Shown here: positions 17,225 through 59,412 of the stretch, piece by piece
Numbering within the stretch: the stretch's first letter is position 1
Layout: each line of letters starts with the position of its first letter
NCBI RefSeq assembly: GCF_905475395.1
Contig: NC_058338.1
Span: 6,028,935-6,092,934, forward strand
From: Chrysoperla carnea
Taxonomy: Eukaryota; Arthropoda; Insecta; Neuroptera; Chrysopidae
DNA: 64,000 nt
Reading direction: 5' to 3'
Made by a program: the position numbers and the translations under genes
The notes under the pieces: model-generated
Database searches by the model: none
The model's input: the letters and a program-made list of their open reading frames with translations, nothing else
What the model was told of the DNA's origin: nothing

Positions 17225-17742
17225 ATGCGAAATTATATTATAATTTCATTATCTTACTTTTTTCTACAAATTTACGGAGTCCAATGTGGGGACAATAGTG
17301 CTTTTACCGATTGGAGATTTTTAACGATCACATTGCCAACCTTAATAAGTGAGTTTTTCATTTCTGTTTATTACTATAAAAACGGTACGTCTCTTAGTTG
17401 AGTATTATCTATTGTAAAAGTGTGTTAAAAAGGGAAAGTGAAAAATCATAGACATCATCAAGGGGTTTTCTAAAAATTCGGTAAAAAATTACAAAAAATT
17501 TCCATCAGTGTCAAACTGTGCTCTCTAAATAATTTTTCATTTTCCAAATAAAATTTTGAACTATGCTTATTTTTTCAGTTATTGCTATTATCATTGCAAT
17601 TGTATTTCTTGTCCTACGATCACCTTTAGGTTGCTGTTTTGGTTTGTTTACGGAACCAACCATCTATGAAGAATACGTGAGTCCTAAGAAAAGCATATTT
17701 GAAGATTTGTGTATCGATAATACTCAGACAGTATCAGTGTAA
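17225..17742 (+). CDS. small single-pass membrane protein, family member 1 (unrecognised)
   Basis: I do not recognise this protein. Two exons, 17225-17348 and 17579-17742, join in phase 1 to give 95 residues. Residues 1-21 (MRNYIIISLSYFFLQIYGVQC) form a predicted signal peptide. A very short ectodomain (GDNSAFTDWR) leads into FLTITLPT and a strongly hydrophobic span (IIAIIIAIVFLVL). The predicted tail of about 40 residues starts CCFGLFTEPTIYEE. The intron cuts the codon inside the membrane span. FLTITLPT, the intron position and the CCFG-x-F tail motif all recur in the gene at 37278, so the two are paralogues. The ATG at 17225 was chosen because it starts the signal peptide; an upstream in-frame start would bury it. 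With no separated ectodomain it could instead be a two-span hairpin protein. Confidence 0.7.
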
Positions 17743-17787
17743 TTATATTGTAATTTTACAATTGTAATACCTAAAAAACAAATTTTT

Positions 17788-17793
17788 AATAAA
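17788..17793 (+). terminator. poly(A) signal of small membrane gene 1
   Basis: AATAAA lies 46 nt past the stop codon and 275 nt before the EPG5 ATG. This supports gene 1 as a separate transcription unit and not a leader of EPG5. Confidence 0.6.
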
Positions 17794-18067
17794 ATTTAAA
17801 TTTGTCTTTTTGACTTTCATCAAACTTGAAGATAATCGTATTCTGTACCAACATAATGGAAATTAAAATATACCTACACTAGAAGATTTGACACTTGGAC
17901 AGTCCAATATAAGATTTTAACATTCGTGATTACATTTGTCTTTGTATAAAATTTTTTATTTATTATTACTATTATTTTTTTTTTTACAATCAGCTGATAT
18001 GGATATTTACCTTTGTGAAAATTTTATCAACATTTTCTTTATACATTGAAATAGTGAAAAACTAAGT

Positions 18068-21000
18068 ATGGAAGTGCCAAAAATTAAGCAGGTAGGAAAA
18101 TTTTAAAATTTCCCCTCGGTATCAATTATCTTGATCGTCTTTATTTGTAAAAAAAAAATGAAAAAATGAGATGGAAGTATCAGAATCCTATCATTGTTTT
18201 ACGACGAATTTTTGAATGATTGAAATATTTTTCCGAAAATTAACTTTTCGTTTAACATGCATCAAATTAATATTTAAGCATTTTAGTTATTGTTTGTTTG
18301 AAGTTCTTATCATTTCAAGGTTGCAAATATCAGGAAATAATGATACAAATAAAATCTCAGTTCATTCTATGAATCAGTTTCACTTTCAATAAATCATTCG
18401 ATAACTATTAATAAGATGTAGTGAGATTTTTCTGAATTCATAAAACTATAAATGAAAAATTATTATTGTTTATAAATGTTAGATGATGTGAATATTAATT
18501 AAGTTTGAAAATTTAATAATATTTTTCTCAAACGTTAAAGTAAAGAGTAGGGAAATGCTAAAAAATCAAAAGGTCGGTAATTTGAAACCTAGGAAGGAGT
18601 ATCGATTATTTGAAACTAAGTTAGTTATAGTAACTAGAATTTGAGACGAACTTAAATAGAATTTATCCAATTTATATATTGTTTATGCTTTACTGTTTTG
18701 AATATTTGCGCTACTATTCGATATATGCGCAATAGAGACTAAATATGGTTGAAAGATTCATAGACTATCAAAATAGATAGCCCAGTGAAATTTTCTACAC
18801 ACAGTCATATATTATATACACAAGTCTGTTATAAAATGCATTAAGAACATATGTTCCCTTATTGATGTACGAGTTAGTTCCCAAAACTGCTACATAGTCA
18901 CGCCACCAGTATCGAATCCATATCACTGTTTATTTATTTTAAATTTTCTACTAATACCTCTATAAGGATTCTACTTATGTGGCGCTGTCTAGTGTTCAAT
19001 AATGTAACTAAAACAGTTTCATTAAGAGACTCGTGGTTTATATTATACGATTGTGATTCTACGTACGTGATTGAGTTTCTCTATTTCCCCATTTTTCTCT
19101 CTCGATCTTCCACTGTAAGAAGAAAAAATGTTCAAATAAAAAATAGCCTTTTTATATAATAAAAGCAATCTTTGATTGAAATTTTTCCGACAACTCAATA
19201 TAGATTTCAGTAATTATAGTACATTTAAACGATTAAACAGTTAGTTTCTATATATCTTGTTTGTTTTATTCACGTTTAGAATAAGAAAAAGGAAAAGAAA
19301 CAGAAACAGAAAACTGAGAGAAAACCAATTTGTCATGAAGAAGAATCAACTTCGTTGAATGTAAATATTGAAAGTGAAATTCAAGAAGCAATTCAGGATA
19401 CACCTAGTTGCTCAAAAAATGAGAATGTGCAGACACCGAAACTTCCAGTCAACGAAGAGAATAAACTGGATATTCTAGTGAACGAAGAGAGTAATCAAAG
19501 TGTTCCAGTCAACGAAGAAAATATCCAGAATGTCGCAACTAGTGAAAATATTCTCAATGATAGTAAAGATAACATTTTAATTCCTGAAAATAATGAAACA
19601 GAATCAAATCAAGCGGGTAACTCGCAAACTGATAGTCTAAATATGTTAACGAAAAATGAAGAGAGTCAACAAACATTACAAAATGAACCAAATCAAATCT
19701 GTAAGTAGCAGTTTATTGATAATAATTTATTAAATACTCGGCCGAGGGTTGATAAAAAATGTTACTATTGTCAGAAATCATTTATTAATTAGTAGTCAAC
19801 AATTTCACTTTCCTTGAATCCGCATTAAAGCCCATCCGTTGTATGAAAATTATACGAATTGTTTTAATAAATAATGTAACAGATAAATATAATTTTAGGT
19901 CCCGATGAACAAATATCCAATAATATCACATTACCTAAACAAAGTACAGACTTGAAAATGAAACCAATTTTAACTGAAGAAAAACATGACACTGTTGTAG
20001 CTTTGAAAAATTTATCGTTAAATCAAACCAAAGATTCTATTCGATACCAAATATGTAATGTACCTTCAAAAGAATTAATAGAAAACTCGAATCAACAGAT
20101 GAAAATGAAACCATTTACGTCCATTCAATTATGTGAATTATATCATAATGAAGAATATGATTTGGCAACAACACATTTCATACGAGAATTTATTGATACG
20201 GAATTAAGTGCGAATTTTGATAAACAACATAATTTATATCATTGTTTGATGTCATATTATCAAGTAAAACAAAAGTCTATTCAATATAATTTAGAAATTC
20301 AAAATTTAATACAAAAATGTTCGACTGATGAAGGAAAACTTTGGATCGTCAATGAAACAAAGGTCAGTTTATTGTTTAAAAATCATTTGACTCCACAAAC
20401 ATTACAGAAACTTAATGTGAACATGGATCCGAAGGCGATACCCCTTTCCGAAATCTGTTGGAAAAGATCATTACCACTTATTTTAAATCGCAGTCTTCTT
20501 GGTGTAGCGTTGTCTTACGGGTGCCCGCTATATCCCAATAGTGACAGTGTTACTTTTTTTAAAAATTTTATAATAAAATTAATCATTTTTTCAGGTTTCA
20601 AAAACAAGCGAATGTTCAAATAAGCATTCTGTTAGTGTAGTACAAAATTACACGTTGGCTTCATTTCAAAATTCTTTATTTAAAGAGTTAACGACATCTT
20701 TATTGCAAATTAAACAACGGCTTCACGACGATTATGAGCTAAATTTATATTTATGTCAGACTTATAAATTACAGGTGAATAATTCGTATATATAATTTAA
20801 CAACACCTCGACTCGATGCGCAAACTTTAAGGACTTAATCTTTGGATGATTATAAGCTCCTAAACTTTTGCAGGCCTGTAATATTAAGATTAGAAGTAAT
20901 TATTTATTTAATTTATAGGTTGACTATCGTATTCAATGTATTACGGATGAATGTCGAGGAGTAGCAAAATTATCACCAAAGTCACCCGTACAATTACAAG

Positions 21001-24000
21001 AAGGCGCATTGCCTTTATATCTATTACAAGAGATTCGAATATGTTTATCAATTTTATTTTATTTTCAACGACGTAATATTTCTGAAAAATCTTTTATTGA
21101 CGAAACTAGAAAATGGATTGAACAACTAGTTGCTATTTTATTACGAGTCGCATCCTGGAAGGATCATTTATTTTTGTTACATCATATACTAAGGTAACGA
21201 TTTTTAGAAATAATAGGGAAAAGTGAAACAATCAAACAAATTTTGTTAAAAAAAGTTTTCTTTATCAACGCTCCAGTATTTAATTAACAACATTTTTGGA
21301 GTTTACTCCTTAAGAATCGATTTTCATATAAGGAATTGTGTTGTGCTGACACACACAATTTTTTATTATAAAAAGTGAAATGAGCTTTTGTTTTCAGATG
21401 TCCAGGTGGTATCGCTAATTGGGCAACACATTTTATTCAAGCACCATGTCCTAAAACACTGTCATCGTCCCCATTCTCTGATGCGTACATTAATCATGTT
21501 GTGACAACCATAGCTATTATTTTAAGTCCGATTGAGAAACGTGAAGCATTTCTTTCCGAATTTTTAGCACGAGATATGGTAAATGATAGTATGTGGATTG
21601 TGGTTGATTCTGATGGTGAAGATGAAGAGAACGAATCTGTAAATACATGTCCTATTCGAGAAAGTGATTTAATCGCATTGCTAAATCAAATACCACTTGG
21701 TAATCTGTTTCGTAATTTGACACGAGTTATTACCAAAGACGATCAAGTAAGTATCAGTAAATTCATTTCCTCAGGAAAGCGCTTTCCTGCAGATTTGTTG
21801 TTTTACTGGAAAAAGTTTTATCCCTTTTTCAAGTTTTCCAATAATCAAATAAAAAAAAAATTAAAAACATCGTGTAATTTTTTTTTTAGGATATTTTAAA
21901 TTTAGATGAAATAACCGAATCATATTTACTGCAATTGATTGCATGGAGTTCCAAATGGATAGAAATTTTAGGATGTGGTATACGCACTTATTCCACAGGA
22001 CGATATCGACAATTAATAAAATTATTATCACGTTTTATCAATTATACAATACAGTATGTGACAGAAGTATGGATACTATTTAGGTATGATAAAATTCACC
22101 TTCCTATTATAATTTTTAAAAGAAATATAGAAATTTTATTTTTATAGCGCTCATAATACAAGAAGGATACGCGACGAAGCACTGATACAACGTTTACAAA
22201 TTGAATACGATGCATTATTTTTACGTGCTACAAAATCAATTTATTCATCACAACGACTTGGTGCATGGCAATTTTTAGCAGTTTTACCATTTGAAACACT
22301 TTCATCACCGACTTTATGGATAGTTTATTATTTACTTCATAATAGTGATGCTGAGATTGAAACAATGACGGAAGATTTAAATAAAAATGATATTATTAAA
22401 GATCTAAATAGTGCTTCATTCAAAATGCAGTTCGAGGAAATAGTTAAAAAATTACCGGATGCTGAAATTTATTATTTATTACAAACATTTGCAAATATGG
22501 CTTTGTCTAGGACACAAAAAGATGATTGGGATTTTATACAGCTTGCCACTATTAATCTTTTACACGTAAGCTATTCTTAAATGAAAAAACGAAATGGGTC
22601 TTTCTTGGGTCGTTTTATGATAAAATCGTTAAATTAAAAGTTGCAAAAAAGAATCAAAACATACAAAAATTCAGTTCCTTTGATGAATAGATGCGCAGTT
22701 TTCGAGATGCCGGTAAAAATTCTATCAAATTTTAGATATACAGTCTATCACAGGATACTGGCTGGGCGTCAAGCATGTTGAACGCTTAGGCCTGGCAGTG
22801 TATCACGACTACTGCAGGAGCTGTTACAGTGGTGACGAGGAGGAGACAATGTCTCATCTTCTCTGTCACTGCCCAGCTCTTTCCATGAGTAGATGGACTT
22901 TCCTGAGCTAGTCTCTGTTTGACGACCTCTCCGACCTAAAGTCAGTCGACGTTAAAACCCTCCTGCTGTTCTTAAACAGCTCCAAATGGTTCATGGAGTA
23001 GTGGCCGGGTATGGGCCAACCCATTTAAGGTATCCCAACGGACCCTATGGTCTAAGTGTGTCCCACCCCAGGACAGCCACTCTAAGCTAACCTACCCTAA
23101 CCTAACCTAGATATTCAGTTGTCCGCGGTCCTTTATTTGGAAAAAAAGTGTATCTTCTAATGACTTTCATTCCAATACGGTTGTAATTTGTATGAATTTC
23201 TAATGACCAAGAAAAAGTTAAATAAATTAAGTCGAAAAAAACAAAATTTATTTTCATGATCTTTTTTTTTTTCTTAAATTTATAGGTTGGCTTTACAAGC
23301 GTATCAACACGTGAAAATAATTCGAAGCACGTTAGAGATTTATTATCAAATTTAACCGTTAAACATCCAATTTTAATTTCAACGATTTTAAAATGTCTAC
23401 ATGAACATATATCACATATGGGGCAGGTAAATATAAATATAATCTATACAGGGTGTCCTTTTTATACCATGAAATATACATGGTATATTAAGCTTAGTCT
23501 CAAGTTTGTAACGCTTAAAAATATTGATGCTACGAAAAAAATTTTGGTATAGGTGTTCATAGAATCACCTAATTAGTCCATTTCCGTTTGTCTGTCCGCC
23601 TGTCCATCTGTCTGTCAACACGATAACTCAAAAACAAAAAGAGATATCAAGCTGAAATTTTTATAGCATACTCAGGATGTAAAAAGTAAAGTCGAGTTCG
23701 TAAATGAACAATATAGGTCAATTGGGTCTTGGGTAACATGTATGAAAGTTTCGGCGTCCACCAGGTGGGCTCTGGAAGTGAAATTTTCTGAAATTCTCTA
23801 GCTACGAAGGTAGTAGTTTAATCGACAGTGTTCCACTACCTTTGTTAACTGTATTCTAGTGAATTTCAACCGAACACAATCGTAGCCACTCTTTGAATCG
23901 GTAAATTATGGAGCATCTTAATATGAAAATGACGGGCTCAGGTGAAATAGGCATTTGAGAGGACCCCTCTCGTGCCAACGAGTTCGTATCTTCGTTCCCT

Positions 24001-27000
24001 TTAACACCAGAGTATCCCGGTACGCAGATCAATCTGACTGTGTTAATCAGTGCCAGATGGCTCAGTTCTTCGAATCATTTGTAGATTATTCTCGATTGGA
24101 ATCTTAAAGCCTCAAGAACTCAAAGTGTAGCTTGGTCATCTGAGAAAATGCTGGTATGTGCTACACTGTAGCCTTCCGGGATAGATCGTGCGAAGATTTC
24201 TGCTTCGAAGTGGATTCAATTTTTTTATGATAGGTTCATAAGCCCACACACTAGATAGTTCTCTGGGTTTTGATCCATCCGTTTCGAAAGGGGACAAAAA
24301 GTTATCTTAATCTCGATCTTATTCTTCACAGGAAGAACAGATTACCCTAAGTTTGCGAATACTAATATCTTACTAATTTTTTTTTGTTCTAGTTAGCTTT
24401 GTATCTTTTCAAAGAATTACCATTACATTTATGGGTACCAACAGAGGAGGACTTCCAACTATTAGCCCAAGAGTTAACCAACAGACCAATTATTTCATTT
24501 GAAAATAACTTAGTCAGATTTATTTTGGCTCATTTAAATTGGGATTTTCGAGAAAATTCAAAGTAGGTTTTTAATGTTTAGAAACAGGATTCAGAATTAA
24601 CCATGATTAAATTTGTTTTAGGAACGATGAATTATTTTTACCACAGCAGATTCATTTACGAATTGCTTTACTATTAGTAACAGCAACCACAAAACATTAT
24701 GCAGATGGTATGGCAAAAGGTACTGATGTATGTATGATTTGGGAGAGTTGGGTATGGAAATTTTTGTTACGGCTACGTTTACATTTATTTGATCAAGATT
24801 CGCGCACTATTTATTATTATTTTAATGATCCAGTTGTGGTTTTACAAAATATTCCCGAATATCATCCCGATATTTTACAAGGTAATTTTTTATCACAATA
24901 TTTTTTATTTAGATAATTTTTTACGAATATTCTTCTCTGTGTTCCATTTTACTGTTTTTCCACTAATAAAAATATTAATATACTTAATTTTTTAGCTTTG
25001 AAAGATAAACAACATGTGGCCACATTTGTAACACTTTTAACAACACAATGCGGACACTCTGTACCATTAATTTGTGATCATGGTTTTGTTTTAATGCAAA
25101 ATTTAATAAACTCAACTCGATACAATGAAGTTATATTTGCATTACATTTAATTATTCCAATTTTTTTATCGTGTGAAGAAGCACTTTGGCATTGTGATAA
25201 GTAAGTTATGAAATCTGTAATTATTAGTCTAGAAGGAAGTTTGTAACCCTTTTGTAATTCCGATTAGTATGGGAGGAAGCTTTTCTTAGCCCAAAAGAAC
25301 AACATACGAAATTTGGTAGCCAAATACTATAACCCAAAAGTTTAACCAAACATCAATATTGGTTATTATAACTGAATCGAAAGTGATGAAATCGGGCTTA
25401 ATAATTGATTAAAATTTGTTAGAATTAATATTGTTTATTTCCTAGATTAAAAGATGTGATAATTGGCTTATTTAATGCTGACAAAGGTTACGTAAAAATG
25501 GCAAAAAATTTAATTATTGCAAATGATCCTGGTCCAATAATTAAACAATTTGGTAATATGATACAGTACCATTTGAATAACGATAAAAAGTAAGTGCCCA
25601 TTTGATCCAATTACAAAAGACTTGGGTGAGTAAAATTATTTTAATAATTTTTTAGATATTTTCTGGAGAATCCTGGAAAATTAATTTCAATATGGCTACG
25701 AATAGTTACATCAATTGAAGGATGGAATCGGGATAGTAATTATATATATATTGTGGATATAATTTTACGTTCAGCATTTTTTTGTGCACCGATTTATACG
25801 GAAGTTTTTGATATTTTAAGAGAATTATTAAAGGTGGGCTCAAATATTTAAAATTTCTTTATAATAGGAAAGATTACATGTTTCCTAGATACTTATCCCA
25901 GATTGGTAATGGATGCAGTCTACTTATTCTGTTTTGAGACATCAATGAACCTAGAAACAGTCTCATAATTATTTTCTGAATAACTCGTAGAATTATTTTC
26001 TGAATATTGATTATTTTCAGGTACATAATGATTCTACAAAAACACAAACATCAAATTCATCAGGAGGAATATCTTCGTTATTTTCTTGGATGTCAACTTC
26101 AGCAACAATGCCAACATTATTATTAACAATATCAGAAAATAGTGTTTGGCTAGGATATTTTCTTTTAGAATTAGAATATATTGAATTTGAATACAAAACA
26201 GGTGTCTGGAAGGAGTTGTTTACACAAATTAGAAATAGTACATCTACGAAAACCAACATTGACAATTCATTGAAGGTGAAGAGACTGGCTTCACTCGAAT
26301 TTATAAACATAAAGCAACGTTTGAATAAATATTTTCCTATTTTTTTTTCTAGAAAGCGGCTGAAATATGTAAAACTCCATTTTTTGGTTCAAAATTTTTA
26401 AGTATATATCGTTGGTCTCAACAGGCATTAGAAGCATCATTTGATCATCCTATATTGATATTATTATGGCAAAAATTTTTTGCTTTATATTTTTATCGTA
26501 ATATCGAAATGTAAGTTCAAAAAATTTTGATTTCTTTCCATAGAATTTTTTCAAAAATGTTTTCTTTGCAATGATTTACTAGGAACAGAGATCTTGGTGG
26601 TATTGGAAATAAATTTTTTGAAGGTGTTATTAATTTAAATTATTTGAAAAAAATTAAAAAACGTTTACAAGATACTGTTGAATATTTTAGTAAAAAAGCT
26701 GAAGAATTTCCAAGTAGAAGGGAATATTTTATTAATTGTGAAAGGTTAGTAAGAAGTTGATTAGCAATTACAATATTGTCTGTGGAAGGAATGACGGAGT
26801 TGGTTACGTCCTAAACCGGATATCTAGAGAACCCGGGTTCGAGTCCCGGTTTAGGTGAAATTTTTTGGTTTCTTTCTATTTGTTCAAATGAAAATACGTA
26901 ATGTGAGATTTCCATTGAAGTGTAGTCCATTTTAGTTTCATAATAAAAATATTTGATTTTACAGTTTATTTAAAACATTTCTTTTATGGTTTGAGGAAAC

Positions 27001-30000
27001 ACGTTTACAAGAACCAGGATTTAATATACATTCTTTGCCACCGACATATTTACCACAAAAGTTATTATCACTTTTTGAACAAAGTAACGTAAGTAAAAAA
27101 AAATATGTGTAATACCATCCCCTCTTTTACTGTCTTCAATTTAGACTCCATTTAACGCAATATTTTCACGACAAAAAGAGGCTGTCTCAAGTACGTCGCA
27201 ACCTCTCATGGCAAGAGCTGTCTCCTCCTCCTCAGCACTGTGACAGCTCCTGCAGTAGTCGTGATACACTTTCAGATCCAGGAGTTAAGCATGCCTGCCG
27301 CCCAGCCAGTGTCTTGTAATAGCTGCAACCACTTTGCTAATAGAGGCCCTTCTAAGTGATATGTATAAGATTTTTGAAACAATTACGATTGTACTCAGAC
27401 CATATCTGTCTTGTAGTATCACAAGTACGTTCCTCTCTCCATCTAAGATTGACCTTTTTTAAGATATCCTTTTTGAGGAGCAACTTGCAGTTTGCAAATC
27501 TTTTTTTGAATAGTACTACTCATTCAAAATGATTTTCGATTCATTTGAATAAGAAATCATTTGCACCCAAGTGATCAGGTCTTAAAGCAGCGGATATGTC
27601 TTTTGATTTTATTTGTTGATGGAAATTTTTTCCAGGAATTATGGTTTGAGTATGTGAATTATGAACATGTAAAAAATTCTACAAATTTATGCTCAGAAGA
27701 ATGGATAACGAATTGTTATCGTAATCAAATAACACGTATTGTATCACCGATCAAGAAATGTTATAATCAAGAAGATCATTTAAAACATTTATTAAATCGT
27801 TTAAATTCGTACGATAATCCACAACCACCTCCAGAATTATCACCTATATCGACGATAATTCCTCCATTTGCACCAAATATATTCGTCGATAAAATGAAAT
27901 TAATGTCACTTTTAAAACCTCGAGTGAATACTGTCATCAAATTTACGCAGTAAGTAGTGTTAGCAGCGTGTTCGTAGTGTAAATAATTATAAATTAAAAA
28001 TTATTTAATAGGAATCATTCAATGCTATTTTCACAACATACCGCGTTAGATTGTGGCTATGGAGAATTATTACCGCAATTATATAAATCCGAATTACGAA
28101 CAATTCGAATGAAACAACGTTGTGCTAATAATGGTTGCTCTGAAGTAGTTAATATAACTTTTATGGTAAGATATTTATTGATATTTGTTATTTTATTTTT
28201 AACAAAGTATACCGAACAGATATCCAAGTAAACAGCATCCTCCACACTCGCGCGAGGTAGCATGAAGTCGGCCAAGGTTTGAGAATATGGATATGATACT
28301 TGTGTGGTCTCGTCTGTACTAGCCCGAATCGAAGACAACAAGTATTTGGTATTTTTTCATATGTGAGGTCCCTTGAATCCATTGGATTACACCCCCACGG
28401 TCAGATAGTACCAAGCACCGCCCACCAACACTCCCTTCCGATGGAGCAGGTCACTGGGATACTCCCAGTTAGCGCGCCAAAACTTCCAGTGTGTCTTCCA
28501 TCTTGGCTACCAAATTCCCTAGCAGGTCACGACCGTTACCTTGATGGGACTCGCGCCTTATCTAACAGCACTTGCAGTTCTGTGTTACTGCCAACTTATG
28601 TGTTAGAGCGTTGTAAAGACCTTTTAGCGACACCCTGTATATTAAAATTATTAACATTTATTTCAGAATACAGAAAGTAAACTTAATGAAAGTATTTTAC
28701 ATCAAATTCGTTCGAATCGTTCAGAGTACGAAGTAATTTTAAAACGATGTTTAAGCAATTTTCCACCAGATTTTTGCAATGCTTGCCTTTACATTCTTCA
28801 AGCTAATAAGTAAGTTTTGTCTTTCTTATTGTTTTCTATTTAAAAACTAGAATTTCAATTTATTTTGTAGATTCTTTGTTTAACTTTACAATCAATCAAT
28901 AATCGATATATTTTTTTTCAGTCTTTTAGTATCAGAATTTATTAAAGCATCATCAAATAACGATAATGAAAAAATCGAAAATATTCAAAGGGTTGCAGCT
29001 GATAGTTTTTATTATATAATTTCAGTATTTTCGGATGAAATTAAATTTTATTCACCAGCTCGATTTTTATTTTCGTCAATTACAACACGACTAGGAGAGG
29101 TAAGCACCCAAGTGGTCAGGTCTTAAATCTGATCATCGGCTGTCACAGACCCTGAAATTTATATTTAATAATTAATAAAATATAATAATTTTCTGTTATA
29201 GACGTTCATAACTGGTTGGGACACGGAAACCACACGTTTACTAAATATTGCAATACAATTTCCAAAGTTAATTGATACACTGGTTTCATTATTCGAACCT
29301 CCAGTCGATGGAGTGGGCTTTCTAAATGGCTATAAATTTCTAGTGGATCATATTACTAATTTACCACCAGAGACAACGTTTTTGTTTTTATCCAAGGTAA
29401 ATAAAGAATACGCGAGTTGAAGTTGTAATCACGAAACGATTTTTCGAGAATAACGCTTATTTAATTTTTTTTTTTGTAGTTTGATATAAAAAAATGGTTG
29501 GGTGTAAAAAAACCAAGGCTATGTGAACGCTCAGAAATATTATCAACTCTAATGCAAGCATTAATGGCGTTAGGTTTAAAACCTGAAGAACAATTTAATC
29601 TTCTGCATGAGGTAGGCAATATCCTGTATTATTTCTTTCCCACAAAACTATTACTCTTTTTTAAAATATTCGACTTGGGTGCTTAGCTTTCAGCTAAACT
29701 TTTAACAGTGTTAAGTACTGCTCTGTTGATGTAACTTGGCACCGTAAGCACTGAGAAAGTGATATTTAGCTCCCAAAAGCTATGCACACCTTCTGAAAGT
29801 GCACAAACTCGGATTACACGCATTTAGGACCAAATGAAGGTGTTAAAATGATTTCCTCTTGCTGGAAATTAAATTTTCTTTTCTAAATATCTACCAGATA
29901 CTTAATCGTATATTCCAAGATATTCATAACTTTTAATAATTTCAGCTACTTAGAAGTCATTTAATATCAGTATTTTGTCATGAATGGCCTGAACATTATG

Positions 30001-33000
30001 GTGAAGTTCTTCAAGCAGTTTTACGTGCAAGTAGTACATCAGAACCAGATGGAGGTTGTATAAGTGTACTAGTATGGAAAGATTTATTAAATACTTTAGG
30101 GTATAAACAACTTCCGTCACAAAGTTATGTTGAAGAATTACGTCATTATGCGACTACACAAACATTACTCAAATATAATGAGGTAAGTGATGATCTGAAA
30201 TTTGTAGAAAGAAGTCAAAATCAGTTATAGGGGAGACCGTATGCATATCGTATCTCTGGCGATTCGAATGATTATAATGCAGAGAGAAATATTACTTGGA
30301 GCTTATTTGATAAATCGTTTACTAAATATCATGCTTTTCCAAATTTTCACCCAATCGTTTGCTGTTACAGCCTTCCTTTTGACAAGAACAACCCGGGCTT
30401 TCTTCTTTCTTTGTAAAAGGAAGGTATTAGTGAAATCCGAACTTGTTATCGTGTAATTTGCCCTGTTATTAAATGCACTTTGTTTATAGGGTTCAAAATA
30501 AAATGAATACAATTCTGTTATAAAAAGTAATGTCGTTATAACTGGTTTTGACTGTAAAAATAAAGCCTTCGATCTTTCATTCATTTTTGTCGAGAATTGG
30601 AAAGTAAAATCTGAAAAGCGGGAAAAAAATTATGTTCGAAGACTCATAATTGAATTTTCTTGTAGTTACTAGAAAGTGCTGTTTTATTGGGTCATCATTT
30701 TACTCAAGAACGATTAACATATGGTCTTTATGGTTTATACCCACGTTTTCGACCGTACGTAGAGCAAATTACAACTTTATTAGCAATGTTTGGTCATGGA
30801 TTAGTTGTTAGCGTAATGCATAAGTACCCGGGTCTTTTAGCTGATGAATGTAAGTAGCTGTTTATCATCCTGTTTATTATTATTGAAATAAATACCACGA
30901 TACTCGCAATAAAATTGTATATTAAGAAATTCTATTTAAAGAATAGAATTAAAAAACATACAACAGACTTACATTTTGCTAAATATCAATATTTCGATTG
31001 GAAGACAACCATTGTCAGTAGCTAAATTTATTTATATAACACATTACAAACTCGAAGTCAACAAAAATTCATCCTTATATCTTATCTATTATTTTTCTCC
31101 CCCCAGTAAAATTTCAAAATTGGAAATCGATCAAGTAATAGAGTACATTTAAGCGATAAATTTAGGACTAACTTCCAATCCTCATGGAATCTGAGGTGAT
31201 TTACGTGAAGTGTTTTCGTGGTATTCCCTATCTACCATTAAAATTTCGTTTAAGATTTAATCCTAGCTTCTTTTCTACAATGATAGTACTTGAAATGATA
31301 TGGCCTGGATTAACGGACATGTTTTCACCATGGCTAATGCCATATTGGACAAGAAGTTTGAAGGATACATCAGCTGTATGGATTCAACAATTAACCGATG
31401 GACGGGCTGCAGTTCTGCCATGGATATATGCTGATATTAATTATGCACAAAAAGTCATTAGTGCTTTTGTAAATATTATTCGATTTATTATTGAAATGTT
31501 ACCAGGTAATTATAATTTTTAACCAACTTCAAAAAAAGAAGAACTTTTCAAATTTTAATATTTAATTTCTTGTCTTTACAGCATCCAATAGTATTTTTAA
31601 TCGAGTGTGGCAATATTATATTAGTAATTTTGCACATTCAGCCGTAAAAGATCATGTTTTATCGCCGATTCATTCCTCATTATTGACGTTACCATGGGAA
31701 AGATTTTGGCCATCTTTACAAGATCTAGAAATAATGTTGAAGGTAAGATAACAATGTTACATGATTAAATAATTAGAAGAAATTTAGTATCAAGATTCAT
31801 TTGATTTATTCGAAAGATATTCCAAATAAAATGAACCCTCATTAAAATGAGTTTTTTGCGTTCTTTTAGGTTGTTGATCAATATTTACCAACGTGTCACA
31901 TATTTATTGGTTGTATAGCAATGCGTATACCTTGGGTCCAGTGGCTGAATGCTATCGAGAATAACGATACACCGACAGCGATCACTATTCGGACACAACA
32001 ATGTCTTCTACCATTATTAGTTAAATTATCTCATGAACCAGCTGTTCAGCAACAGGTAATTACTTTTTAATAAAGTAAGAAAGTTATGATGAATGATTAA
32101 AAACTTAAAAATTGTTTAAATTGTTTTAGAGTTTGAAACATTTACAAACTTTGCTTTCTCAAGCATTCCGTTTTAATTGGTATCACGTAGATGTTGCTAC
32201 TTATGAAACGCTTATTAATTGGTATGTGATGAGTGTTGATCCAAAAGTAGTTTTACGTTTGAATGATAAATCACATAAATTAGACTATTTAATTTTAGAG
32301 TAAGTATTATTTTTTTGAGAGAAGTTCATGATAGTTTACTCTTTGTTTCAAATAGTTGATCAGCCAGTCTTGTAATGTTTTTACTACTTTGTCTTTTTTT
32401 ATTGTACTAAATAACGGAAATATGTGGGTGTCTTCATCTTAAATGCGACACTATATGTGTATATTTCGTTATTGTAAAGTCGCTTTGCGATGCCTTGAGT
32501 CCAGGGCGCCATCTTTATCAAATTCAACAACTTCTGATTCATTGGTATTTAATCCTGTAGGTACATATTTAAGATTCAAAACTCGATTCTCACGAATCGA
32601 ATCAAGTTCTGCTAAAATAAAATTAATAAATGTTAGCAAAGAGAAAGTTATTGTGATTAACTTCCAATTATTTTTTAATAGTTAACAAATATTTACATAA
32701 AATGTTCTCAGTGTTTTACTAGCTTCTGCTGAACATATACCAAGTGGTATTGGTGGAAAATTAGGTGTACATGCTCAAGCTAAACGTAAAATATTTATTC
32801 GAAGTTTTACGCGTTTGTTAATTGCTACAGCGAATCGTTACAAAAATTTAGTAAATAGTGAGAATATTAAGTTCCGTACCACTGTCGTTGAAGTTTTAGA
32901 AGATATGGAAAATATTTTAAAAACTAATGGTATGTATTAAGATAACTATACACTGTAGCCGTAGTTGTTCTAGCTAAAGCTTTAGCTTTAATGATGAATC

Positions 33001-35242
33001 GATTACGAAATCGTATGCTTACATTTAATTATCACTTTTTAAAGTTTCTATCATACTTTTTTTTTCAGCTGTAAATGAAACTAATAAGTTTACAGAAGTT
33101 ACAGAACTTCTAGAAGAATTTTTAATTATTTCCGATGATAAAAATTTGTCGTTACTTTTTAATGAAACATTGACTGAATGGCTTTCTAGTCGTACTGAAT
33201 ATAATCTAGTTTTACATGGAGTTTTATCTGTGCTTGGAACTGTACCACAATGTTTAACTGCAACTGGTGCCATACTGGATGCTGCCTTATTAGGTTATTT
33301 TAATTTATCTGAACCCAAATGGGAAATGGTTGTAAAATTGTTAAAAGGTATATAGCAACTATTTAATTTAATCTGTCGAGAATTTACGTTTTTTACTAAG
33401 TGCCGCCATTCAACTAGCGACCTGGAAGACAGGCTTAGGCCTGGCAGTGTATCACGACTACTGCAAGAGCTGTCACAGTGGTTACGAGGAGGAGACAATG
33501 TCTCATCTTCTCTGTCACTGCCCAGCCCTTGTCATGAGGAGATGGACTTACTTGAGCCAGCCTCTCTTTGAAGACCTCTCCGACCTAAAGTTAGTCGACG
33601 TCAAAGCCCTCCTGCTGTTCTTAAACAGCTCCAAATGGTTAATGGAGTAGTGGCCGGGGATGGGCCAACCCATTAACGGTATCACAACGGACCCTAATGG
33701 TCTAAGTGTGTCCCACCCCAGGACAGCCACTCTAACCTAACCTGCCTGATCTACCAATTAATAAGTTAATTGACTACGACGTATACACATGCTGTATATA
33801 ATTTTCAATTTTTAGGACGTAATTTATGGACGTCAAGAAAATTACTGGAAGTAATGGCTCAAAATGGTAATATTTTAGCATTTCATTCAATAATGTTAAT
33901 TCGTAAAGATGATCAGACAATTTCGTTACCAGAATTAATTGAATGGATTACACAAATTAAACCAGAGTAAGATTAAATGAAGATTTAGTTGATATATTTT
34001 TAATATGAAACGTTTTTGTTTTCTTTTTGCAGTAAAAATATTGAAAGTCGATTACCATTAATATGGAACGATGTTCTAGAGCTAATAATTACCGATTATC
34101 ATAAAACGAGTGAGACAAACGATGAAAAATGTATTGCTAATATTTTAACGAATCTAAAAAAGTTTACAAGTTATTTAAATAAAATAGCGGATGAAAAAAG
34201 TGGTTGGGGTAATTCATTGTTGGGTGCGATGCGTATCAGAAATAATAGTGTAGAAATTACGAATCGGTAATTAAAGTTTATTAAAATTTGAAATAAAACT
34301 TCTACAGCTAAAACAAATACACGAGTTGAACAATTTTATTTTAACTAGGCCCATGCGCAGGAATCGTCAAAGGGGGGTTCAAATTTTTGTTCATCATGTT
34401 AAGTCACAAAGCCAATAAAAAGGAGGAACTCTTTTTTCGAGTGAGAAACCATTTTATTAGATCAAAATGTGATATTCAGTCACATAAGTTAATTCTGCGA
34501 GCTACAGAAAATAACTTTTCCGGAACTCTGCGAGTTATATAACCTGTAGCTCGAAAACTATCCGTTAAATTTGTGGCCGTAAGAGCTTTTGATCAGAGAA
34601 TGATCTGAACAACATTTTAGATCCGGTTTGACCCTCTCCACTCCGTGCGCACAGGCCTGATCTTAACTATTCAAATGTATGAGATAGAAATTAAACTTTT
34701 TGTTACTTGTCTAGGTGTCGATTTTTTTGTAAAGCGTTAGCGTTATTTTTAAATGCACAAATAATTGAAAATCATTCAGGTAATGAGATAATTCGTTGTT
34801 GTGGTGAATCAATTCAATCAGAAAATTTGAATACGACTGACGTTAAAAGTTTACATCAATTTTCTCATGGAGAATTAAAAGTTTGTGCTGATATAACTAT
34901 TAAACAGGTAATTTAAAATTTTTTAAACTGTTCTTAAGACCTCACTTTTATTAAGTTCGAAATAAAGAAAATACGACACAAGATTATGCCCTTAATGTTT
35001 AAAATAGTTAGTCGTTATAGACTAATTAATAAATTGTAGGTATGTTGTTTTATCCAATTTTATATTTAGATTCAGTAATGTCAGGATCTTAGCGTTTCAT
35101 AGTTATATGTGAGGTTGTTATAACCGATTTTGACTAATTTAGTTTTTTATTTTAGATTCAAGATTTAAAAAATTCGCTTCACAATTCAAAGGATATTACA
35201 ACGTTTTTATGCCAGCAACTTTATAATGAACGGTTTCTTTAA
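18068..35242 (+). CDS. Epg5: ectopic P-granules protein 5 homologue (EPG5), complete, about 36 coding exons
   Basis: EPG5 is a large Rab7 effector that tethers autophagosomes to late endosomes and lysosomes; human loss causes Vici syndrome. Coding exons: 18068-18091, 19280-19700, 19899-20362, 20595-20774, 20919-21193, 21398-21746, 21890-22083, 22148-22565, 23286-23426, 24393-24562, 24622-24881, 24996-25200, 25446-25589, 25656-25833, 26021-26275, 26353-26510, 26583-26744, 26965-27088, 27636-27949, 28012-28165, 28667-28809, 28922-29099, 29202-29396, 29480-29611, 29946-30182, 30666-30849, 31287-31505, 31582-31742, 31870-32055, 32130-32299, 32712-32929, 33069-33347, 33816-33966, 34033-34266, 34715-34907, 35156-35242. 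Phases agree throughout, giving 2518 residues against about 2580 in human. Family-like stretches include [27 protein letters not shown]-type and WIQQLTD motifs, and a C-terminal [10 protein letters not shown][12 protein letters not shown]. The N-terminus is lysine-rich, then acidic and repetitive. A WIVV motif before DSDGEDEE fits an LC3-binding site. The least certain points are the 8-residue first exon and the start of exon 27. Confidence 0.95.
21594..21623 (+). other. candidate LC3-interacting region (LIR) in EPG5
   Basis: Exon 6 encodes [16 protein letters not shown], with the tryptophan at residue 521. W-x-x-V followed by an acidic run is a classic LIR. From memory, human EPG5 has two tandem LIR cores at the aligned place; here the position of the second core reads NTCPI, with no tryptophan, just before RESDLIALL. 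Confidence 0.6.
22735..23110 (+). mobile_element. R1/I-like LINE C-terminal fragment in EPG5 intron 8
   Basis: The plus strand encodes a decayed retrotransposon C-terminus: [21 protein letters not shown], then [11 protein letters not shown], with a stop, then [13 protein letters not shown] and [10 protein letters not shown] with a true stop. The C-x2-C, H and C-x-C spacing is the zinc-knuckle-like module after the RNase H domain in several LINE clades. The 3' end runs into CTAACCTACCCTAACCTAACC. A second copy of the same segment is at 33395-33750. Confidence 0.85.
23445..23765 (+). repeat. TACAGGGTGTCC start and ACGG-run repeat, copy 2, in EPG5 intron 9
   Basis: From 23503 this matches the reverse complement of 1823-2035, including a (TGTC)n-rich run and acacgataactcaaaaac. 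It begins after a TACAGGGTGTCC edge like those of other repeats here. It is inserted in the plus orientation upstream of an antisense LINE fragment in the same intron. Confidence 0.75.
23770..24345 (-). mobile_element. LINE RNase H-domain fragment in EPG5 intron 9
   Basis: Read on the minus strand, this encodes [15 protein letters not shown], then IFSDDQATL, a stop, more text with stops, and [17 protein letters not shown] followed by SLAREGSS. The order E, D(S/D)QA and VPG-(H/Y)-SG-x-x-GNE is that of LINE-encoded RNase H, with a tyrosine where the active-site region normally has histidine. Several stops show it is dead. It probably belongs to the same family as the fragments at 22735, 27170, 33395 and 57570. 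Confidence 0.75.
26788..26860 (+). repeat. tRNA-like segment with hairpin in EPG5 intron 17
   Basis: An A-box-like TGACGGAGTTGGTTACG is followed by a perfect T-arm (CCGGGTTCGAGTCCCGG). A 10-bp inverted repeat, CCTAAACCGG at 26810-26819 and its complement at 26846-26855, encloses the T-arm and replaces the expected anticodon arm. This is a tRNA-derived pseudogene or SINE head, not a functional tRNA. Confidence 0.5.
27165..27485 (-). mobile_element. antisense LINE fragment in EPG5 intron 18
   Basis: On the minus strand, [20 protein letters not shown] is followed by a degenerate join and then a segment matching the zinc-knuckle region at 22800 (ctcctgcagtagtcgtgatacac in plus-strand view). The first part aligns with 57940-58030. 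It is the same LINE family, inverted relative to EPG5 and riddled with stops. Confidence 0.75.
28200..28655 (+). mobile_element. GC-rich insert of probable transposon origin in EPG5 intron 20
   Basis: A 450-bp block of clearly higher GC than its surroundings sits between the exon 20 donor and the exon 21 acceptor. It ends with gcgacaccctgtatatt, an edge text shared with other repeats here (CACCCTGTATA). A 126-codon open frame runs through it, but I recognise no domain and it reads through the real splice acceptor. Family unknown. Confidence 0.5.
33395..33750 (+). mobile_element. R1/I-like LINE C-terminal fragment in EPG5 intron 32
   Basis: An open segment encodes [57 protein letters not shown] and [10 protein letters not shown] with its natural stop. 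It aligns with 22735-23110 along its length, including the 3' UTR (gtggccggg, tgtcccaccccaggacagcc) and a CTCTAACCTAACCTGCC end. It is 5'-truncated. This copy keeps an intact C-terminal frame, so it is the younger of the two. Confidence 0.85.
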
Positions 35243-35300
35243 TATAATTTGTGTTATTGTTATTGTAAAAATAATTTTTATATTTTTAAATATTTAAAAA

Positions 35301-35306
35301 AATAAA
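35301..35306 (+). terminator. EPG5 poly(A) signal AATAAA
   Basis: AATAAA lies 59 nt past the EPG5 stop codon, in an AT-rich short 3' UTR. Confidence 0.7.
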
Positions 35307-35583
35307 CTATTTTTTATTTAAAAAAATTTGAGTTATTATTTGACAAGCACGAGTTGGAATATGTATATTACATTACTAGTAGTAAAATATGTCAAAGGTG
35401 GAGTAGTGGCTAGCTTGGTCGCCTCCAGCTACAGAGGACCTCGGTTCGTATCTAGCAGTGCTACGATTAATTTTTAATTAACTAAATTATTATGCCAAGA
35501 TAAAATCATTTTTTTAGATAATTCTTATGAGAACGAAAAGCGACAGATAAGTAAGAGAGCGAGGTATATTTTATGTTATTTTA

Positions 35584-35655
35584 ATTCCCACCCTCAGCCA
35601 GAATAGTGATTTATGACATTTCCCACCCTCTGCCAGAATAGTGATTTATGACATA
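35584..35655. repeat. tandem duplication of a 34-bp unit
   Basis: Two adjacent copies read tcccaccctcagccagaata then gtgatttatgaca, and ttcccaccctctgccagaa then tagtgatttatgaca. They differ at one or two positions. Confidence 0.8.
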
Positions 35656-36379
35656 AGTAGGTAAGTGAGACTAACATGTTCTGTTACAAAATCTTATAAA
35701 ATTCCATTTCACAAAAAAGCTCCGCGATCTTAGCACCTCATGTGCGGAATTTCGATTGACCAATTATACCATCTGAAAGGTCAGAAATTGGTCATAAAAG
35801 GTCAGTTGGTCTCATTAATTGGTCAGCATCAGAAAATTTTTTATTAAAGATTGAAAAAACTCCACCTATGCGCGATCGGGAAGCATTCGCTGATAATTGG
35901 TCAGCTAACTAATATAAATAATTGGTCAGTTTAATTTTATATTCAAAAAATAATATAATTTCGAAAAAATTTTCAATTTTTTCAACATTTGTACTAGGAG
36001 AACATAAGTGGGAATTAGTAGTTCCTGATAAGGAGAAAAGTGAGTAAGTGTTTTCACCCCGAAAGTCTAAAATTTTATTTTGGCAGAAAGTTATTGGTCT
36101 GCCCACTAGAGGTCACACTCACCAAACACAGGTGTGCAGACCACTAACTTTCTGACTTACGAGGTGACAACAATTACCTTGCTATCAGGTACTACTTATT
36201 CCGTCCGTCCTTGATGTTCTCCTAGTAGAAATGTGAAAAAAATTGAAGTTTTTGAACGAAAAAAAACTAATTTTTTCATCATTTACTAGGCAAACATGCT
36301 GTGGTGGAAATTTGAAAAAAAAATGAAAATAAAAATCAGATTTTGCTTAAAAGATTTAATGAACTTTTTTTTATTATAT

Positions 36380-36452
36380 GTCCCTCACCTAGTTTCGAAC
36401 CAAGGGACTATTTATTCGAAGTCAGATACGCTAACCATTATACCATTAGGGC
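36380..36452 (-). pseudogene. tRNA-like pseudogene, Arg(TCG)-like
   Basis: The minus strand gives a 73-nt tRNA-sized segment starting GCCCTAATGGTATAATGG, with an anticodon-loop-like CTTCGAA and a T-arm CTTGG-TTCGAAA-CTAGG. The A-box and B-box are recognisable. The 5' CCCT and 3' AGGG of the acceptor can pair. The anticodon stem is broken (TCTGA against TAAAT) and the D-stem is poor, so it is a degenerate tRNA or SINE head. Confidence 0.5.
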
Positions 36453-37277
36453 TGTGTTATTCGTATTAATAAATAATTATATTCATATTTTCGACTTTCT
36501 TAAATTATAACAAAAAGTAAAACTCATTTTCGGAAAATTTTGAGTAGTATTATTACAAAAAAAAAATGGCAAACGAAGTTTGAAATACTTACCTATCGTG
36601 AAGTTCGAAATACTTACCTATTTTTAACTGAAATAATATTGTATAGCTAATATTGTATATATATATGTATAATTAACTTCATACTTAGCTTTACTAAATA
36701 ATTAATTAATTGATAATATTCTTCTGAAAGAAAAAATAGGATAGGAAATTTAAAAATTAAAACAAAATTTAAAATATTTAACAATTATTATTTATTTATA
36801 ACAAAAAAAAAAAAAAAAAATGTTTTAAATTTTCATGAAAAATCATATTGTACATTTTCATAAAACAAATTGACAGAGATTCTTCTTTTACTTATTAAAG
36901 TTTTTTTCAAAATAATTAAAATTCCATCACTTTTATATAATAATAATAATAAAGAGTGTCCCAAGATTAACGTCTGATTCGAACTTAAAATAAAATTTCT
37001 ATAATCGTTCTATAATACTTTATATTCAATGAATGTGATAAAATATCTCGGATTTATTTTTTCTGTTGTTTTTGCAACTCTCTTAGTAGAATTAGACAAG
37101 GTATGCTCGATGGAGGACGAGTTTTGGTTCTCTAGTTCTACCATGGCAACTCTGTATTATTTTTTAAATATTTCTATAGAAATAATTTATAACTAGCGCT
37201 GTAATACTGATTTATTTAGGCAAAGTCTATGTTTAGGTTGGTTTAGGCCACGTTAGTCCTATTGGGGTACATAAAAA

Positions 37278-38500
37278 ATGATAAATAAAATAATACATTT
37301 ATGCCTTTTAAGTTTGATAATTAATAATTATCAATTGACAATTTCAAAACACTTTAATAAAAGTGAAGAGTTTTTGATTGACGATGATGACAACGAAGAT
37401 TTCATAACACAATTTCAATTTCTTCATGGAGCTTCCGAGGAGGTGCATGAGGTTGGAGAATCGGGAGACGAAGAGGGTGACCTCCAACAGGGGCAAGATG
37501 CATTACCCGGAGAAGGGGCAACTGTAGCAATCGAAAAAAAAGAGAAAAAAAATTATTTCTTAACAATTACATTACCTACGTTTATTGGTAGGTGTTAATT
37601 ATTCCGATTAATTAATGTATTACAGGATTTATGTAGTATCTAGCAAACAAAAATTTATCTAATCAGAATATAAATCACCTTAAAAATAAGTTTAAAATAG
37701 ATAGCGGTAGACCCATTGGACACTGCACCAAGCTTCGATCACCTATTAAAATAATGACTTTTGAAAAAACTTTGAGGCGGATTTATGACCCGTATTTATC
37801 TCAATTTTAATATCCTCCTGATTGTGGATCAAACATTGAACCTTGGTGCAAAACGATTGATTGATATCTATGACTGGTAATAAAATCTTGATACAACCAT
37901 ATCTCGTACGGATTTTTCCATACATCTTCCGGTATATATGATATTCTGTACAAAGAGAACGAAAATTTTTGTCCTATTGCCCCTTTTAATTATATCATTA
38001 ATGTTTTTTAGCCGTGTTTGGTACAACACTATTTTTAAATTTAATAATACGATTACCAGAGTGGATGCATAGGGATATTAAAAGAACTACTGTACAAAAT
38101 GAAACAAAACAGTAAAATTTGCGTTAAAATATTCTCGAAAATGAAGTAAGGCTAAGGCGTGTAGTAGTAAACTAGTTAATAGTAATGTGTTTTTTTTTAA
38201 ATTTAATTTGTTGTATACTAACGAGTAATAAAATTATTTTTAAAGTTACCATGCGTTTCTGCGAGGTTGGTTATCGATGAGATTTAAGTAGTACTTTATT
38301 AATTTTTATTTGTAAAATTAATTCTATCAATTTATTTTTCTTCAGTTGTTGCACTTCAGTTCATTGTTATGATTGTAACTTTACACAAGAAAAATTGTTG
38401 CTTTGGATTTTTTGAGAAACCATTAATTATAGAAGAAGAACTTGATCGATTTAAACGGCGAGAAGTTTCTTCATCCGAAGATTATGATATAATTTATTAA
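37278..38500 (+). CDS. small single-pass membrane protein, family member 2, with two alternative last exons
   Basis: I do not recognise this protein. The common exon is 37278-37587 (103 codons, ends in phase 1). It can join 38012-38115 (tail A, 137 residues in all) or 38346-38500 (tail B, 154 residues). Both acceptors keep frame and both exons end in their own stop and poly(A) signal. Residues 1-23 form a predicted signal peptide. The ectodomain is highly acidic (EEFLIDDDDNEDFITQFQFL, then a Glu/Gly-rich stretch) with one NKS sequon. KNYFLTITLPTFIG starts the membrane span, completed by AVFGTTLFLNLIIRL (tail A) or VVALQFIVMIVTL (tail B). Tail B has CCFGFFEKPLIIEEE, shared with gene 1 at 17225. 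The acidic motif is shared with gene 3 at 38966. Likely a type I cell-surface or secretory-pathway protein; function unknown. Confidence 0.72.
38012..38115 (+). other. alternative last exon A of small membrane gene 2
   Basis: After a good acceptor (aatgttttttag) it encodes AVFGTTLFLNLIIRLPEWMH and a basic tail ending QNETKQ. It completes the membrane span and gives a tail of roughly 20 residues. AATAAA follows at 38227. Confidence 0.65.
38227..38232 (+). terminator. poly(A) signal after exon A of gene 2
   Basis: AATAAA lies 112 nt after the exon A stop and upstream of exon B, so it could end the short isoform by itself. Confidence 0.55.
38346..38500 (+). other. alternative last exon B of small membrane gene 2
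   Basis: After acceptor atttttcttcag it encodes VVALQFIVMIVTLHKKN, then CCFGFFEKPLIIEEELDRF, and ends SSSEDYDIIY. This is the version homologous to the last exon of gene 1, sharing CCFG-(L/F)-F-x-x-P-x-I-x-E-E. The Tyr/Asp-rich end (EDYDIIY) could be a sorting or phosphorylation signal; that is inference. Confidence 0.7.
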
Positions 38501-38531
38501 TAATATTATAATTATCTTATTATTATAAATT

Positions 38532-38537
38532 AATAAA
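38532..38537 (+). terminator. poly(A) signal after exon B of gene 2
   Basis: AATAAA lies 32 nt after the exon B stop and about 430 nt before the gene 3 start codon. Confidence 0.6.
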
Positions 38538-38965
38538 CATAACTGATAACCTTTTTGAGTATTATTTGAGGTTGATAAAACATAAGGTCATAAGGACCTA
38601 TTTTACTTGCCCATAAGCTGTACATAAGCTTTTGGATAAAAAGTTGCTTTTAGACTAGATTAGATTCGAGTTCGGATTAAGTTTTAGACAGGATTAGAAT
38701 CTCGAAAACCGAAATATAGACTGAGAGTCAGCCCCCCTCTCGAACGATTTTCGAAGAAAAATTACTACGCGGAATTTATTTTGTGTCATCCCCTCTTTTA
38801 ATCTAATTCTACTGGGTTATATGGAAAATTTGTATCAGGAAAAAATGTACATACTCATTTCATGTTACATAGCAACCAAAGACTTTTAATTTGATGTTAT
38901 GGAGATATTATTACTTACAGTGAAAAATATCTAATTATTAAAATATTTTAATTATTTTTTTAAAA

Positions 38966-39501
38966 ATGATAAAACAAATAATTATCATCTTTCTGAGCTT
39001 AACGACTATTAAAATAAATTTTCAATTTGCATTTGCTGAAGATGAAGAACCATTTGTAATAGATTATGATGATGTTCAGGATGCTAAAACACGTTTACAG
39101 TTTCTTTCAAAAGATATCGAAGATGTTTTTGGTAATTATAAATACGAATATTTTCTGCTAAAAGGTAAAGGAATAAAAGGAAATATAACGGCAAAAGAAA
39201 AAATGATAGCGAGAATTAGAAGTGCAGCGGAAAATAGTTCATTAGCAAGTAATAACACTAATGCAACAGAACCAAAATTTAAGTTAGAATATCTACCTCC
39301 AAAATATGGGCCAGTAATTACAGTAGTGGTAGTTGTCGGTAGGTATATGTTTATCAAAAAATTTTTCCGACAAAATATTATATTTTCATTCGCTTAGTTT
39401 AACTAATTTTTTTTTCATTTTAAATAGTTACTGTAGTGGCCGTAGGGTTGGGTTGTATAGTAATACGTCTGGCTTTTAAAATTACTTCAGCTGCTGTATA
39501 A
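38966..39501 (+). CDS. small single-pass membrane protein, family member 3 (unrecognised)
   Basis: I do not recognise this protein. Exons 38966-39338 and 39428-39501 join in phase 1 to give 148 residues. Residues 1-24 are a predicted signal peptide with a good cleavage context (AFA before EDEEP). The ectodomain of about 90 residues begins with the acidic motif FVIDYDDVQDAKTRLQFL, which aligns with gene 2 (F-x-ID-x-DD-x-x-D-x-x-T-x-x-QFL). It contains four N-glycosylation sequons (NIT, NSS, NNT, NAT). The membrane span VITVVVVVG-VTVVAVGLGCIVI is cut by the intron at a glycine/valine junction as in gene 2. The tail is only RLAFKITSAAV. No CCFG tail exon was found downstream. It is in tandem with gene 2 in the same orientation. 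No canonical poly(A) signal was found within 300 nt. Confidence 0.7.

Positions 39502-46373: not shown

Positions 46374-59412
<13,039 letters not shown>

Follow-up and report, generated by a model that had tools for sequence, protein, structure and literature searches.

A dispersed family of about eight small, predicted one-span membrane protein genes in the lacewing Chrysoperla carnea

PSGL-1 (SELPLG), the vertebrate selectin ligand, consists of an acidic N-terminal region, a stalk, a single membrane span and a short tail, and bears stalk repeats and selectin glycans. The FXYD proteins, small regulators of the Na,K-ATPase, are small type I proteins whose extracellular part bears an acidic aromatic motif and whose cytosolic side has cysteines next to the membrane. 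Here we describe three small genes of this general kind in a 64,000-nucleotide stretch of chromosome 2 of the lacewing Chrysoperla carnea (C2:6028935-6092934; hereafter the window, whose positions serve as coordinates for genes 1-3), together with five relatives elsewhere in the genome. Small type I membrane proteins are a known kind; the unusual part of the lacewing proteins is an ectodomain with acidic tyrosine motifs.

The initial annotation had read the genes at 17225, 37278 and 38966 as an undescribed family of three tiny membrane proteins around EPG5. A family of small one-span membrane proteins is almost certainly real, yet it is not confined to three genes flanking EPG5; about eight members are spread over four loci on chromosomes 1, 2 and 4. 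The three genes in the window are present with the motifs quoted for them and could each be modelled as two exons joined across a GT-AG intron of phase 1 that lies within the membrane span:

17225..17348, plus strand: gene 1, exon 1; N-terminal hydrophobic segment, ectodomain of ~10 residues, WRFLTITLPTLI border, phase-1 donor GTGAGT
17318..17341, plus strand: gene 1, outer membrane-border block FLTITLPT
17579..17742, plus strand: gene 1, exon 2; membrane span, RSPLGCCFGLFTEPTIYEE and tail, stop; AATAAA 45 nt past the stop
17632..17643, plus strand: gene 1, CCFG at the inner membrane border
37278..37587, plus strand: gene 2, exon 1; N-terminal hydrophobic segment, acidic ectodomain (net charge -14), NYFLTITLPTFI border, phase-1 donor GTAGGT
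37371..37424, plus strand: gene 2, acidic motif FLIDDDDNEDFITQFQFL, common to gene 3
37557..37580, plus strand: gene 2, outer membrane-border block FLTITLPT
38346..38500, plus strand: gene 2, exon 2; membrane span, NCCFGFFEKPLIIEE and tail, stop; AATAAA 31 nt past the stop
38396..38407, plus strand: gene 2, CCFG at the inner membrane border
38966..39338, plus strand: gene 3, exon 1; N-terminal hydrophobic segment, ectodomain with EEPFVIDYDDVQD, start of the span, phase-1 donor GTAGGT
39053..39106, plus strand: gene 3, acidic motif FVIDYDDVQDAKTRLQFL, common to gene 2
39428..39501, plus strand: gene 3, exon 2; remainder of the span, short tail without CCFG; first AATAAA 827 nt past the stop

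Genes 1 and 2 share the block FLTITLPT and a tail of the form CCFG-x-F-x-x-P-x-I-x-E-E, and genes 2 and 3 share F-x-ID-x-DD-x-x-D-x-x-T-x-x-QFL, with identity at 10 of 18 positions by visual count and the similarity lying in the N-terminal half of exon 1. Using Smith-Waterman scores against 1000 shuffles within 10-residue windows, which keep the local composition, the gene 1-gene 2 score of 104 (shuffles 32.8±7.1) and the gene 2-gene 3 score of 72 (35.9±6.6) were each reached by none of the 1000, so the shared motifs withstand the permutation test. The similarity between genes 1 and 3 is not significant (454 of 1000 local shuffles reach the score). Compared with neighbouring genes, codon usage is gene-like for gene 2 (score reached by 1.6% of 183 background runs) and gene 3 (0%), and equivocal for gene 1 (12.6%).

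Genome searches covered the C. carnea assembly, 559,487,470 bases in 337 contigs. With gene 1 as the query, a weak match was obtained at C2:74753179 (E-value, E, 0.07), later gene 4 (G4; the family members are G1-G8), where the translation reads CCFGLFYEP and an exon ~800 bases upstream, outside the match, holds DYIATVTVPTVIG and a phase-1 donor. G5, the next gene downstream of G4, follows the same plan. G4 as the query finds G5, exon 2 of G1 (E 0.34), C1:48333120, which is G6 (E 0.11), and C4:8209334, which is G7 (E 8.45). The upstream exon of G6 holds the outer block as KYFLTITIP, and the downstream exon of G7 encodes the span followed by SPCK, without CCFG. G8 was found 5.8 kb downstream of G6 by a search for the CCFG pattern, and G6 as the query finds both G8 and G4. 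The five further genes are therefore a pair at 74.75 Mb on chromosome 2, a pair at 48.33 Mb on chromosome 1 and a single gene at 8.2 Mb on chromosome 4. Members have two to four exons, with G8 modelled in part, and all modelled introns are GT-AG. A first exon was sought for G8 and not found: there are only two candidate ATGs, in one frame, and by eye the donors create a stop at the junction. Beside G4 and G5 lie two similar reading frames (L020:6857-7132 and 8833-9048, plus strand), presumably ATP synthase subunit c-like.

An exon-2 consensus built from the members matches five places in the genome, all of them members (G4, G6, G1, G8 and G5; E 2.7e-14 to 0.04), and an outer-border consensus matches G4, G5 and G7 only. 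The exon-2 consensus missed G2, which makes the census a minimum. No further convincing member emerged when the C. carnea genome was searched with proteins, consensus sequences and patterns. A stretch of 24 residues at C3:6218278 (L046), 62.5% identical to G5 and with no second half noticed, may be a fragment; a weak match at C3:60439210 (L064; E 0.18) contains one stop. Six of ten CCFG-like matches (C1:29861565, C1:43695413, C1:120052328, C3:50952933, C5:31616225 and C6:21624082) have nearby stops and are not regarded as members, five of these six sharing similar repeated sequence. Three of six further pattern matches (C1:88803908, C1:110216531 and C2:16006367) were judged non-members, and the weak protein matches L009, L010, L013, L047 and L048 were set aside. 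A viral origin likewise found no support: 52 stretches of viral contigs match a pattern, none of them related by tblastn.

These positions bear on the arrangement around the gene between genes 1 and 2, which we take to be EPG5. The initial annotation had suggested a cluster that either spans this gene or was split by rearrangement; since two or three members sit together at three of the four loci, neither is needed. The family is dispersed, and tandem duplication with dispersal is the better account because the best-scoring pairs are mostly genomic neighbours.

The border blocks and the intron tie the members together. At the outer border, T[IV]T[LIV]P occurs exactly in five of the eight (G1, G2, G4, G6 and G7) and as the variants TVAFP in G5 and LISVP in G8; at the inner border, CC[FY]G occurs in six (G1, G2, G4, G5, G6 and G8) and is followed by a tail of ~33-42 residues. 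All eight carry a phase-1 GT-AG intron in the span (read by eye; the G8 frame was checked separately), and in seven of them it cuts the fourth residue past the proline of the outer block, a proline that G3 lacks. Among the 28 member pairs, 13 exceed all 1000 local shuffles, three are reached once and four are reached 14 to 25 times. The best are G4-G5 (245), G6-G8 (140) and G4-G7 (127), followed by G1-G2, G1-G4 and G4-G6 (104 each) and G2-G4 (101). As G4-G8 were picked up by their resemblance to a query, their pair scores are biased upward, and the neighbouring exons and the common place of the intron are less biased evidence for the family. G3 is similar only to G2 (the six others give scores reached by 334 to 982 of 1000 shuffles), and on these comparisons it is the most divergent of the eight and a provisional member, tied to the family solely via exon 1 of gene 2.

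The possibility that the members are look-alike hydrophobic open reading frames (ORFs) in AT-rich DNA deserves mention, since the chromosome has ~29% G+C, as reported in PMC10116181, and the first cross-matches were weak (E 0.07 to 8.45). Against this, the two blocks, their order, and the phase and place of the intron are alike across the four loci, and the 13 pairs above beat every local shuffle. Among intergenic control ORFs starting with ATG, an N-terminus comparable to that of gene 1 occurs in 7 of 71 and to those of genes 2 and 3 in 6 of 71 each, whereas a hydrophobic N-terminus and a span together occur in only 1 of 71, with thresholds (2.0 and 2.3) that were fixed after the family values had been seen and with control ORFs that are unspliced. 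We therefore rejected chance as hardly credible.

Codon comparisons agree with protein-level constraint at the borders. For the outer block (seven genes), 42 codon pairs are identical, 57 synonymous and 132 amino-acid-changing, and for the inner block (six genes) the counts are 52, 33 and 65. The nonsynonymous rate (dN) is below the synonymous rate (dS) in nine of the ten pairs with a defined dS; in five further pairs dS is not estimable. With longer blocks, dN and dS are 0.32 and 1.15 for G4-G5, and 0.32 and 1.96 for G6-G8. Because the border blocks are short and were picked as conserved, constraint is shown at these blocks only. Polyadenylation signals give mixed support to the gene models: AATAAA lies within 60 nt past the stop in four of the eight members (G1, G2, G5 and G6), compared with 20% of random positions; in G3, G4, G7 and G8 it is 219 to 827 nt away, with an ATTAAA at 54 nt in G4.

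Hydropathy gives a hydrophobic N-terminus in the seven members with a known start and one strong span in all eight, and type I membrane topology is very likely. The earlier description of genes 1-3 as having a signal peptide and one membrane span agrees with this profile, except that a strict 19-residue scan, which flags the N-terminal segment in four of the seven (G2-G5), misses that of gene 1. Likewise, the ectodomains of genes 1-3 are acidic or minimal as described, but across the family they are not always minimal, ranging from 10 to 283 residues; all eight are net negative (-1 to -14). With boundaries placed by eye and G8 partial, they hold one cysteine in total, in G5. The last exon of G7 (L057:5739-6064, minus strand) encodes a much longer and very acidic cytosolic tail of ~99 residues with a run of E and D.

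What most of the ectodomains have in common is tyrosine in acidic surroundings. Sulfated tyrosines are described as having acidic residues within five positions, and Drosophila tyrosylprotein sulfotransferase (TPST) has been assayed on the substrate ATEYEYLDYDFL from PSGL-1 (both from PMC6272617). We called a tyrosine acid-flanked when four or more acidic residues, and no more than one basic residue, lie within five positions of it, and counted 14 in the eight ectodomains, compared with 3.2±1.7 in shuffles, none of 5000 of which reach this number. The 14 sit in six of the eight members, with examples such as LDYDD, FDYSDDYKD and FEYDDYK. A motif [FLV][DEI][YD][DGS]D, chosen after the alignment had been seen, is present in six of the eight against 0.1 expected.

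From these features we tentatively propose that genes 1-3 and their paralogues encode small type I membrane glycoproteins with a sulfated acidic display. The N-terminus would be a cleaved signal peptide, and the acid-flanked tyrosines would be sulfated in the Golgi by TPST, a modification that, judging from their surroundings, is fairly probable for some members. The paired cysteines may be palmitoylated, because they lie just inside the membrane, and would provide a lipidated anchor. The cell surface would then display a flexible strand of strong negative charge that binds a basic partner, as sulfated PSGL-1 binds P-selectin. Blood cells or an epithelium might use such binding for adhesion or recognition, with both the ligand and the tissue being guesses. 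The ectodomains vary between fixed membrane borders, which points to duplication as having diversified the outer partner and kept the anchor. Adhesion or co-receptor display is the function we favour, though more hesitantly than the sulfated display itself, and a role as accessory subunits is nearly as likely.

Several observations weigh against this proposal. There is no sulfation-like tyrosine in G1 or G2, and the G1 ectodomain is almost nil, so that sulfation would not be the job of every member. The signal peptides are predicted by hydropathy only, and 1 to 8 of the 71 intergenic ORFs match individual N-termini. Other choices of ectodomain boundary raise the cysteine count, to one each in G1, G6 and G7 and two in G5. 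Single-sequence AlphaFold2 gave no confident fold for exon 1 of G3 or the last exon of G7 (mean predicted local distance difference test scores of 38 and 49), and such low values neither support nor exclude disorder. With respect to the family as a whole, G3 is without both border blocks and G7 has SPCK in place of CCFG; 8 of the 28 pairs do not differ significantly from local shuffles, namely six with G3 together with G6-G7 and G7-G8; and in the G4-G5 border blocks dN (0.37) exceeds dS (0.31).

The proteins could instead be accessory subunits of a multi-pass membrane protein such as a channel, transporter or receptor, with the borders and span as the docking part and the ectodomain secondary. 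The most conserved positions do flank the membrane, with invariant T, P, I, L, C, C, G and P in the cores of G1, G2, G4 and G5 (in this alignment two rows carry one extra typed glycine), and an ectodomain that can span 10 to 283 residues, leaving G1 as little beyond a hydrophobic N-terminus, a span and a tail, would fit a secondary role. However, the residues of the span vary freely, which is unexpected for a docking helix, no Pfam family of accessory subunits is matched, FXYD included, and the acidic tyrosine motif of most members is left unexplained; we consider this role somewhat unlikely. It is very improbable that some members are membrane-tethered precursors from which dibasic cleavage frees acidic peptides, as in prohormones. 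Exon 1 of G5 (L020:1515-2111, minus strand) does contain, by eye, two similar units of ~65 residues starting KKQNKR and KKQIKR, with further basic sites KDKR and RRKR, and LHKR follows shortly after the N-terminal segment of G4. Yet the repeated arrangement is found in G5 alone: G6, G7 and G8 have one dibasic stretch each, which adjoins the span in G7, G1 and G3 have none, and G2 has only lysine pairs adjoining the span.

Quite possibly, the family has already been described in other insects and these genes are ordinary, fast-evolving lacewing orthologues, as our insect genome searches covered C. carnea alone and the RefSeq annotation may list the genes as uncharacterised proteins. Against this, and in agreement with the earlier statement that no known family was recognised, none of the eight members (G8 partial) scores above the cut-off with any of the 24,736 models of Pfam-A, and word searches of the open-access literature returned no description of such a family among the matches listed. 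Searches of PDB sequences with G2, G7 and a four-member profile gave chance-level matches only (best E 1.1, 0.45 and 0.28). The fungal family Psg1 (PF14610) was rejected: G2, G6 and G7 match it below threshold (E 0.0049 to 0.069; 13.4-17.1 bits against a cut-off of 30.1), one of nine shuffled controls matches it as well (13.9 bits, E 0.047), and the similarity may be an effect of composition. The family is apparently undescribed.

Gene 2 may have a second last exon, a candidate read from the sequence of its intron (37588-38345):

38012..38115, plus strand: candidate alternative last exon of gene 2, phase-compatible, containing LFLNLIIRLPEWMHRDIKR, with a stop; AATAAA 111 nt past the stop

It encodes a hydrophobic stretch and a different tail, without CCFG. 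Dinucleotide shuffling of the intron produced a comparable exon in 4 of 500 runs when a pyrimidine rule was applied and in 46 of 500 when it was not; these fractions flatter the candidate because the thresholds were chosen after the exon had been seen and it lies at or just over each of them. Its codon score over 34 codons is 0.134 bits per codon, compared with a maximum of 0.112 in the 183 background runs. In the same intron, the stretch 37804-37938 has four further matches in the genome at 72-83% identity (L002-L005) and is probably a dispersed repeat.

Elsewhere in the window, the minus strand carries IntS4 at ~11.3-16 kb, confirmed by two matches to Pfam INTS4 domains (E 8.7e-35 and 2.8e-20). 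For the presumed EPG5, none of 14 distinct ORF pieces has a Pfam match above the cut-off, and one piece gave only chance-level PDB matches. On the plus strand, opposite and inside IntS4, 14793-15119 holds a fragment of Pfam DUF6451 (E 9.6e-19) that looks reverse-transcriptase-like by eye. A 97-residue ORF at 57755-58048, minus strand, resembles part of a conserved gene and has no Pfam match at E 0.01. A scan of the window with Rfam gave no match.

A three-gene oddity thus becomes a family of about eight genes, defined by features (the two border blocks, the phase-1 intron in the span and the acidic tyrosine motif) that are diagnostic and searchable in other insects. Annotation easily overlooks small, fast-evolving membrane proteins of this kind. 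If the tyrosines are sulfated, the family would supply insect targets for TPST.

Among described proteins, FXYD differs in that the acidic motif of the lacewing proteins lies away from the span in most members, and no FXYD model was among the Pfam matches up to E 10 for the eight members (G8 partial), a range in which the HMMER filters drop most matches above an E of ~0.1. Within insects, we liken the family by description to Hemese, a sialophorin-type hemocyte protein of Drosophila, described in PMC4043501 as a highly glycosylated transmembrane protein. The closest resemblance in layout is to PSGL-1, whose clustered sulfatable tyrosines, in the excerpt compared here (EYEYLDYDFL), are like the lacewing LDYDD and FDYSDDYKD. 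PSGL-1 has a longer ectodomain, its stalk repeats and selectin glycans are not seen in the lacewing proteins, and the border blocks are peculiar to the lacewing family. The likeness is one of plan, not membership, and homology is not claimed. In its boldest and improbable form, the comparison would make these proteins an independent counterpart of PSGL-1: surface ligands of insects, newly arisen or heavily remodelled in lacewings, whose unfolded ectodomains lack cysteine and bind partners through sulfated tyrosines, the anchor staying fixed while tandem duplication lets the outer strand diversify.

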